Shown in pieces: positions 7,556-24,519 of a DNA stretch of 28,177 nt (the first letter of the stretch is position 1; each line of letters opens with the position of its first letter). Source of the DNA: a virus; the IMG/VR virus record IMGVR_UViG_3300035070_003445, positions 1-28,177 of that record; one strand, 5' to 3'. A program made the position numbers and the translations under genes. The notes beneath the pieces were generated by a model. That model saw nothing but the letters and a program-made list of their open reading frames with translations. It was not told the DNA's origin and did not search any database.

Positions 7556-7936
7556 ATGATTGAAATTATTGGTTATCTTATTGGTGGGGCTATCGTTGGT
7601 GGGTCCTTGACATTTGGACTTATGAACGGCACAAAAGAAGCCCCCATTCCCATAGTTGTTCCACAAGATGAAGTGGCCAAGGAGCTGGGGAAGTTGGATG
7701 TGGTTTCCCCTATATGTTCCCCCGATTTTATCGAGAAACAAGGGGATGGGCTTTGTAGGGAACTTATGTGTATGACCCAAACGAATAGCGCCACTGGAGA
7801 AGTGAGTGGGACGACATGCGACAACATCACCAATCTACGAAACAAGAAAGCGCTTATCTCTTTTTGTACGTCCAAGGAAAGAACGGAAGAAGGGATAACA
7901 AAATGTATAGACTTATTCCAAAGAAGGGGTATATAA
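7556..7936 (+). CDS. Membrane-anchored Cys-rich protein
   Basis: 126 residues. The N-terminus is one hydrophobic segment (about residues 3-22, Gly-rich: GYLIGGAIVGGSLTFGL) with no clear cleavage site, so a signal anchor. The remaining ~100 residues hold at least six cysteines (in ICSPD, LCRELMC, TCDN, FCTSK and KCID), which suggests an exported disulfide-bonded domain. No family recognised. It stands alone after a terminator and before the capsid promoter region, as a possible late accessory (moron-like) gene. A superinfection or host-surface role, or a lysis accessory, are only guesses. There is no strong Shine-Dalgarno (AGGTGA lies close to the ATG). Confidence 0.7.
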   Translation: MIEIIGYLIGGAIVGGSLTFGLMNGTKEAPIPIVVPQDEVAKELGKLDVVSPICSPDFIEKQGDGLCRELMCMTQTNSATGEVSGTTCDNITNLRNKKALISFCTSKERTEEGITKCIDLFQRRGI

Positions 7937-8028
7937 AAAGTTATACACAGGTTATACACAGCCTATGAATAACTTATGAAAAAAGTTATACACAAGTTAT
8001 ACACAGCCTATGAATAACTTGTGTATAA
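7936..8028 (+). repeat. Two 45-bp-spaced repeats with DnaA-box-like sites
   Basis: A block of about 40 bp is present twice, offset 45 bp (7936-7975 and 7981-8020). Each block holds two direct TTATACACA sites 11 bp apart (7941-7949, 7952-7960; 7986-7994, 7997-8005). A fifth, inverted site lies at 8020-8028. The sites fit the bacterial DnaA box consensus TTATNCACA. Sites one helical turn apart would place bound proteins on one face of the DNA. The array may be an operator for the capsid promoter, a DnaA titration site or a replication origin. Confidence 0.9.
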
Positions 8029-8029
8029 T
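8000..8029 (+). promoter_or_regulatory. Likely promoter of the capsid gene
   Basis: A perfect -10 TATAAT lies at 8024-8029. The best -35 is TACACA at 8000-8005 (4 of 6), 18 bp upstream. The -35 overlaps the fourth TTATACACA site and the -10 overlaps the inverted fifth site, so a protein on these sites would compete with RNA polymerase. The upstream terminator at 7499 makes an internal promoter here or before 7556 necessary. Confidence 0.55.
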
Positions 8030-8037
8030 GAAAATGT

Positions 8038-8073
8038 GTGGTTAGGGTCGTTCCCGTCAATAACGAAAACCAC
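8038..8073 (+). promoter_or_regulatory. Hairpin in capsid mRNA leader
   Basis: GTGGTT (8038-8043) pairs with AACCAC (8068-8073), and inside it CGTT (8049-8052) pairs with AACG (8062-8065). There is no T-run after it, so it is not a terminator. Lying near the predicted 5' end of the capsid transcript, it could protect the message from decay. Confidence 0.5.
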
Positions 8074-8109
8074 GGAACAAAAAAAACTCTAACTTAACAG
8101 GAAAATAAA

Positions 8110-9033
8110 ATGGCTACTATAGCATATTCAACTTTACAAACTGCCGGACTTCGTCTTGATGCGATGATTGAAAACGAAGTACGCGCTCTTCTTCACGATT
8201 CGGCTTCTATTCGCAATTCTGGCGCTCTTCTCTTTGCTGGGGATGTGGCTGGAATCGGTTCTGATGCCATCACTCTACGTTATGCCGGTCTTGACGGATA
8301 CGAGGCGATGAATACAACCGCTGACGGTACAGAAATCACTTCTTCCAACCTTACTACAGCAACCGCAGATATTACAGTGGGACGTATTGGTTTACGTTAT
8401 GACCTTACAGATTTGGCATCTCTCACAAAATTGGGAAATGACATTGATGTTTTCCGACTTGCTGAAAGCATGGCTGGAGCATTTGAAGCGCGCTTCATGG
8501 AAATGGTTTGTGCTACATTCACATCGTTCTCTTCTAGTGCTGGAAGTGCTGGTGTAGATATGTCAGTGGATGATTTTATGGACTCGCTGTATTTGCTCGA
8601 AATCGCAGATAACCCATCTCAGCTCTTTGCAGTCCTCCACCCACGGCAAATTGCGGATTTGCAATCCAGTATTAGGTCAGAAACCGCAAATGCTATAGCA
8701 TTCAACCCAGCGCACCACGATTTATTAAAAAGTCTTGGCCAAGGATATGTTGGTGATTTTATGGGTGTACAAATCCACAAATCTTCATATTGTCCATTGA
8801 ATGGTGGCGACCGTGAAGGCGCTATGTTTTCTGCTGGCGCTATTGCTTATGCTTTGGGTACTCCAATGCCTTTAGCTACTCCAAGCGGTGAAATCCGCCC
8901 CGCTGGAACTCCAATTTTGGTTGAGACGGAACGTGATTCAGCGTATTCCCTTACTAAAGTAGTTGGAACAGCGTACACTGGTAGTGCGATTGTAGAGCAG
9001 GCACGTGGCGTTCTCATCTCCACAGATGCATAA
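8110..9033 (+). CDS. Major capsid protein
   Basis: 307 residues, the usual size for an HK97-fold capsid protein without a long delta domain. The N-terminus is helical and charged (LRLDAMIENEVRALLHD), then a beta-rich middle, a long helix (FRLAESMAGAFEARFMEMVCATF, about residues 118-140) as in the HK97 spine helix, the A-domain strand FAVLHPRQIADL, and VGDFMGVQIHKSS, a pattern common in the capsid axial domain. The gene has its own leader with repeats, promoter and hairpin, and a good ribosome binding site (AGGA, 8 bases before ATG), fitting a highly expressed product. Order after portal and scaffold agrees, though fibre genes intervene. Confidence 0.9.
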   Translation: MATIAYSTLQTAGLRLDAMIENEVRALLHDSASIRNSGALLFAGDVAGIGSDAITLRYAGLDGYEAMNTTADGTEITSSNLTTATADITVGRIGLRYDLTDLASLTKLGNDIDVFRLAESMAGAFEARFMEMVCATFTSFSSSAGSAGVDMSVDDFMDSLYLLEIADNPSQLFAVLHPRQIADLQSSIRSETANAIAFNPAHHDLLKSLGQGYVGDFMGVQIHKSSYCPLNGGDREGAMFSAGAIAYALGTPMPLATPSGEIRPAGTPILVETERDSAYSLTKVVGTAYTGSAIVEQARGVLISTDA

Positions 9034-24161: not shown

Positions 24162-24320
24162 ATGACAAGTCAAGATTATAGAAAATATAGAGAACTCATC
24201 AAAAAGCATGGAAAAGTGAAGGGGTTGGAACTCTACAACGAATCATTGAAAGAAACCCCAGCTTATAAGCAATGGAAAAAAAACATGGATAAAAACAATG
24301 GGGGAAAAGATGTTTCCTAG
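24162..24320 (+). CDS. Small basic protein, 52 residues
   Basis: Starts MTSQDYRKYRELIKKHGKVK and ends KNNGGKDVS; helical, rich in Lys and Tyr. AAAGGA lies 7-12 bases before ATG. First gene of the rightward operon. It overlaps the start of the XRE gene by 23 bases. Function unknown; small early proteins of this type are often host-takeover or regulatory factors, which is only a guess here. Confidence 0.6.
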   Translation: MTSQDYRKYRELIKKHGKVKGLELYNESLKETPAYKQWKKNMDKNNGGKDVS

Positions 24321-24519
24321 ATGGATAAGTAAGCAACTTGTAAAAAATGACATGAGCCAAAGAGAGCTATCCGAACAATTGGGCATCCATGAATCTTTGG
24401 TTTCTCGATGGATGAAGGGGGAGCGCGTCCCAACTCTTCCGCGTATTATCAAGCTATCTTCCATCTTTGGGGTGGGAGTGGAAGAGATACTGAAGAAGAT
24501 GGGGAAGCTAGATGTATAA
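24298..24519 (+). CDS. XRE/Cro-type HTH regulator
   Basis: 73 residues (ATG 24310 is an alternative start). Clear HTH: LVKNDMSQRELSEQLGIHES followed by LVSRWMKGERVPTLPRIIKL and SSIFGVGVEEILKK, the complete five-helix XRE fold with nothing else, so Cro-like in size. The palindrome at 24112-24133 is the natural candidate operator. It may set the balance between the two divergent operons. Overlaps the next gene start by 8 bases. Confidence 0.88.
   Translation: MGEKMFPRWISKQLVKNDMSQRELSEQLGIHESLVSRWMKGERVPTLPRIIKLSSIFGVGVEEILKKMGKLDV

Follow-up and report, generated by a model that had tools for sequence, protein, structure and literature searches.

Sites, promoter and leader at the capsid locus

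The window, which is the whole stretch of 28,177 nucleotides analysed here (IMG/VR record IMGVR_UViG_3300035070_003445), carries a major capsid protein gene that is preceded by a predicted promoter, a leader RNA and an array of short sites. The sites fit TTWTNCACA, the DnaA consensus, which is degenerate at positions 3 and 5. The features of the locus are as follows:

7941 to 7949, + strand: DnaA box 1, perfect TTATACACA, first half of double box A
7952 to 7960, + strand: DnaA box 2, perfect TTATACACA, second half of double box A, 2 bp past box 1
7964 to 7972, - strand: weak inverted box TTATTCATA, one mismatch, kept among relatives
7975 to 7983, - strand: weak inverted box TTTTTCATA, one mismatch; several relatives have a perfect box there
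7986 to 7994, + strand: DnaA box 3, perfect TTATACACA, first half of double box B, about -50 to -42
7997 to 8005, + strand: DnaA box 4, perfect TTATACACA; its 3' six bases TACACA (8000-8005) lie at the -35 place
8009 to 8017, - strand: weak inverted box TTATTCATA, one mismatch
8020 to 8028, - strand: DnaA box 5, inverted perfect TTATACACA, overlaps the -10
8024 to 8029, + strand: -10 TATAAT of the predicted capsid promoter (TACACA-18-TATAAT, 10 of 12 matches); predicted start about 8036, inferred
8037 to 8074, + strand: pseudoknotted leader RNA (P1 8037-8043/8068-8074, P2 8045-8047/8053-8055, pseudoknot 8049-8051/8063-8065)
8110 to 9033, + strand: major capsid protein gene (PHROG 544 major head protein, E = 1.3e-7)

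The initial annotation had described five DnaA-box-like sites at the capsid promoter, and exact matching placed five perfect TTATACACA sites there, within 7941-8028; the fifth, said to be inverted over the -10, covers most of the TATAAT. The repeats with direct site pairs spaced by 11 bp were also recovered, as two 45-bp repeats (7930-7974 and 7975-8019) that are 93% identical and hold the perfect boxes. The array is, in addition, larger than those five sites and comprises eight when the weak ones are included. When one mismatch was allowed, eight consecutive sites followed each other at steps of 11, 12, 11, 11, 11, 12 and 11 bp in the order ++--++--, a continuous lattice because three one-mismatch inverted sites (7964, 7975 and 8009) close the gaps. 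TTATNCACA was found six times in the window compared to 1.3 expected, a count that was reached in 1 of 100 shuffles, and five of the six copies sit within 88 bp. Furthermore, the double box TTWTNCACA-NN-TTWTNCACA occurs twice in the window and was absent from 100 shuffles. Rfam matches to the array were rejected, as they scored far under the gathering cut-offs of miRNA hairpin families and arose from the inverted repeats of the array.

No TTGACA was found ahead of the perfect -10 of the capsid promoter, and the 3' six bases of box 4 match TTGACA at four of six positions. The TATAAT is kept in most close relatives, and the final forward box ends 16-18 bp ahead of it, so the proximal box stands in for the -35. 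The promoter consensus match alone is not significant, with about two such sites in shuffles, and its significance comes from conservation. Assuming a start near 8036, the proximal double box would be centred at about -40, which would be compatible with occlusion of RNA polymerase or with class-II-type activation alike. One relative (L241) is an exception in which the -10 is shifted off the array. Judged from the sequences, the boxes stand in a fixed relation to the predicted promoter in most close relatives, L241 and subfamily B (see below) excepted.

Between promoter and capsid start, a leader RNA was found in all clades (e.g. L003-L021, L155-L215, L070 and L109), formed by a closing stem, a hairpin and a pseudoknot that pairs the loop with a downstream triplet. 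Among 61 distinct leader sequences the pseudoknot triplets covary (CAC/GTG in 18, CGC/GCG in 16, CGT/ACG in 9), while one pair is lost in the 14 with CGC/GCA; the closing stem changes widely in sequence and keeps its pairing. The pair counts were not taken from the MAFFT alignment of trimmed leaders, which misaligns the variable linkers. RNAfold did not return the conserved fold for the leader of the window; this program does not model pseudoknots, and the evidence for the structure is covariation. The two members tested had no Rfam match. Since the leader occurs with or without the DnaA array it is a separate element, possibly an autoregulatory or mRNA-protecting one. Elsewhere in the window, a PAPS-reductase-domain gene (81-821) adjoins the terminase genes and had no homologue in the relatives examined.

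Conservation of the array in the phage family

Relatives were collected by scanning IMG/VR with the capsid protein, which gave 19, and with an alignment, which gave 80, and the members L240 and L241 were included. Conservation in relatives had been named in the initial annotation as a check on the boxes, and it came out in their favour: of the 25 records with about 66-98% capsid identity, the window counted in, 22 have an array immediately before the capsid gene, and the exceptions are L008, L010 and L157. At 41-57% capsid identity (58 loci, L021 included), no double box was seen within the locus examined. In 16 of the 19 relatives found first, 48 double boxes were detected, all upstream of the capsid gene and none elsewhere on the contigs, and a reversed control pattern gave no double box on the contigs of the same relatives. 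L008 and L010 represent a near-complete natural deletion of the array, in which one degenerate pair remains 18 bp before the TATAAT. Promoter and leader are intact in both, which argues that the array is dispensable for some relatives. Among array-less relatives (L021, L159-L208), a TGACA...TGTCA palindrome and a divergent gene are often present upstream of the capsid start; the palindrome is perhaps the operator of another regulator.

We also searched 2.9 million viral contigs for the 33-bp array unit TTATNCACA-NG-TTATNCACA-GN(C/T)TATGAATAAC. The search returned 30 matches, and all of them fall at the capsid locus of the present family. In 27 of them the capsid gene lies at most about 0.85 kb downstream, and in the other three the contig stops before the capsid gene, but the upstream gene of the family is present. 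Copies of the unit repeat every 45 bp (++--) or every 34 bp (++-). L240 has a perfect inverted box as the fourth site in all of its units, and the one in the last unit doubles as the -10. Subfamily B (L070, L109 and others) is among the matches, with a capsid about 34% identical to that of the window. Here the units are found 0.2-0.8 kb upstream of the capsid gene and off its promoter, with about 0.1-0.7 kb or an extra gene between the array and the capsid promoter. The array is thus not just a -35/-10 operator, as subfamily B has kept the units without contact to the capsid promoter. Relatives of the capsid or terminase of the window were not found in the genome contigs searched, nor was a capsid match found among the named phages searched. 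These comparisons collectively identify a real and conserved lattice of sites of predicted DnaA type at the capsid locus.

Probable recognition by host DnaA and proposed control of the capsid promoter

To identify the reader of the sites, 122 boxes were compared in register. Positions 1, 2, 7 and 9 are invariant and the variation falls mostly at positions 3 (A or T, rarely C) and 5 (any base). When eight orthologous boxes were compared column by column, seven vary at position 3 and all eight at position 5, whereas only 5 of the remaining 56 columns of the orthologous boxes are variable (hypergeometric P ~2e-10, in which kinship makes the independence overstated). The steps between sites are 11 bp in 152 of 244 cases and 12 bp in 68 of 244, arrays reach 16 sites, and in the regular lattices the 12-bp step falls between a forward and an inverted site. 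In E. coli, DnaA depends at most of its targets on two boxes separated by 2-3 bp (Stringer et al., 2024, PMC11317965); the predicted double boxes of the array have this spacing, a rule that comes from E. coli. A DnaA C-terminal domain was not found in 12 records of the family, while most control genomes scored. The reading of the sites as DnaA consensus in the initial annotation gains from all three observations, namely variation at the positions where DnaA tolerates it, pairs spaced by 2 bp and no phage DnaA found, and it is very probably the host DnaA that reads and binds the array.

An alternative reader would be a phage-encoded regulator whose operator resembles the DnaA consensus by chance. 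A small XRE-type regulator gene is present at 24298-24519, and the array-less relatives carry the TGACA...TGTCA palindrome in the corresponding region. However, the degeneracy at positions 3 and 5 is that of DnaA, the sites are 11-bp direct repeats rather than palindromes, unrelated phages have the same double boxes, and a DnaA-like phage protein was not found. We regard a phage operator as highly improbable.

We propose that the array is a binding lattice for host DnaA and would control the capsid transcription unit in cis. Binding to the double boxes spaced by 2 bp would be cooperative, and DnaA would then spread onto the weaker inverted sites. In the clade of the window, DnaA on the double box that replaces the -35 and on the inverted box that covers the -10 would exclude RNA polymerase, as expected from the position of these two elements. 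As the phage genome multiplies, the ~4-9 strong boxes on each copy would soak up free DnaA, and once DnaA is depleted the capsid promoter would be freed and capsid would be made. The geometry suggests, on balance, that the array regulates the capsid promoter in the clade of the window. Repression relieved by titration, rather than activation, is the leading mechanism, its sign being inferred from biological logic only. The explanation as a whole, with a DnaA lattice as cis-control of capsid transcription and relief by titration, is put forward tentatively and may well prove wrong in part. A link between late expression and replication or DnaA titration had been suggested in the initial annotation; it stands as plausible and as the best available reading.

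Both signs have precedents. DnaA is known as an activator and as a repressor, and extra boxes carried on a plasmid titrate DnaA and derepress the dnaA promoter (PMC8203912). At nrdAB, DnaA bound to high-affinity boxes can activate by stabilising RNA polymerase, with an effect that depends on the DnaA level (PMC8203912). This precedent, together with the perfect -10, the lack of TTGACA and a direct double repeat of 20 bp whose centre is near -40, would fit a capsid promoter that DnaA activates in a class-II-like manner, the double box taking the place of the missing -35. We consider activation distinctly unlikely: host DnaA is there from the start of infection and would be diluted by phage replication, opposite to what a late gene needs, the box already ends in a hexamer that matches TTGACA at 4 of 6 positions, and the -10 lies under an inverted box in several relatives. 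Alternatively, the array might act on the host, as a DnaA sink or as a datA- or DARS-like modulator of the nucleotide state of DnaA, and its nearness to the capsid promoter would be secondary. Strong boxes would be at high copy during infection, subfamily B keeps the array without promoter contact, and in many unrelated phages double-box arrays stand beside other genes. Such a sink would leave unexplained the constant 16-18 bp to the TATAAT in most close relatives, and appears very unlikely as the main function.

The array might also be the DnaA-dependent origin of the phage, where the lattice would melt the DNA for loading of the phage primase/VapE helicase or of host DnaB. It is the sole dense cluster of DnaA sites in the genome, its spacing is like that of double-box binding at oriC, and its genomic place is constant across subfamilies, even off the capsid promoter. 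In addition, the replication module (21-28 kb) showed neither an iteron cluster nor any other clustered repeats, so the origin reading keeps some room. On the other hand, the GC skew check that the initial annotation had suggested for an origin gave no switch at the array. The third-position skew to the left and right of the array did not separate array-bearing from array-less phages, and the third-position skew shift was also seen in one array-less relative. No DnaA-trio was detected (longest YTR run 1-2, longest YTD run 1-2; motif from PMC8235120) and there is no marked AT-rich unwinding region (peak AT per 50 bp 0.74-0.86). Relatives with the same primase and VapE genes had no double box in contigs of up to ~30 kb, which lowers the origin reading, although these records may be incomplete. 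With no skew signal, no DnaA-trio and the array absent from relatives with the same primase/VapE module, the origin idea of the initial annotation found no support, and we view it as unlikely.

DnaA arrays in other phages and in bacteria

Scanning IMG/VR for two neighbouring double boxes returned at least 119 stretches. Among the matches listed, 80 loci were examined: a terminase large-subunit-like gene is nearby in 41 of the 80 (translations were inspected, not HMM matches), many arrays lie in a divergent region beside a small terminase gene, and in seven of the 80 the array is upstream of the present capsid family. A sigma-54-like TGGCAC-N5-TTGCW motif occurs within 300 bp in 11 of 73 loci (from L036-L115, e.g. 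L064, L075, L098 and L110), again among the matches listed. The double-box array query also matched non-coding DNA in Escherichia phage P483 (L251), phiEap-1 (L252), Shigella phage A7 (L255) and microvirus 309 (L253); the matches in T7-like phages are near the genome end or beside a packaging gene, and the microvirus match is intergenic. Since arrays occur in unrelated, T7-like phages and in a microvirus, phage DnaA arrays are not tied to one gene.

Compared to known systems, the array resembles the E. coli DnaA regulon in its TTATNCACA-type pairs 2-3 bp apart, some of which lie upstream of regulated genes (PMC11317965), but here two to four or more pairs, with weak inverted sites between them, stand at a phage capsid promoter. 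The dnaA and nrdAB promoters are alike in the proposed reading, with boxes at the promoter, dependence on free DnaA and, for dnaA, derepression by titration (PMC8203912); those promoters are bacterial and have fewer boxes, whereas the phage array brings its own titrating copies. In lambda, DnaA sites are found near the pO promoter and DnaA stimulates origin transcription (PMC3985674), and the theta-to-sigma switch is considered to depend mainly on DnaA (PMC5499656). The pR/pO region of lambda is similar in that host DnaA binds phage DNA close to a promoter and is believed to control a stage of the phage cycle (PMC3985674; PMC5499656). However, its sites lie in the early and replication region and serve origin transcription, not a capsid promoter. 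Bacterial oriC arrays likewise have several closely spaced DnaA boxes, weak ones included, but no DnaA-trio, strongly AT-rich unwinding region or skew change was found at the phage array. The literature searched contained no account of DnaA boxes at phage late promoters.

The timing of late genes in small phages that have no obvious late activator is often not known, and a host-initiator array on a capsid promoter would make late timing directly testable. It is conceivable, though doubtful, that the phage gauges its own copy number through the free DnaA of its host: the lattice would silence the capsid promoter until titration, as a late switch that is coupled to replication and needs no phage late regulator. 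If true, phages would be reading, at a structural gene, the signal by which the host starts replication. Unrelated phages also carry double-box arrays, which suggests that capture of DnaA by phage DNA could be common yet largely overlooked, and a marine phage might time capsid production by sensing the use-up of DnaA by its own replication.
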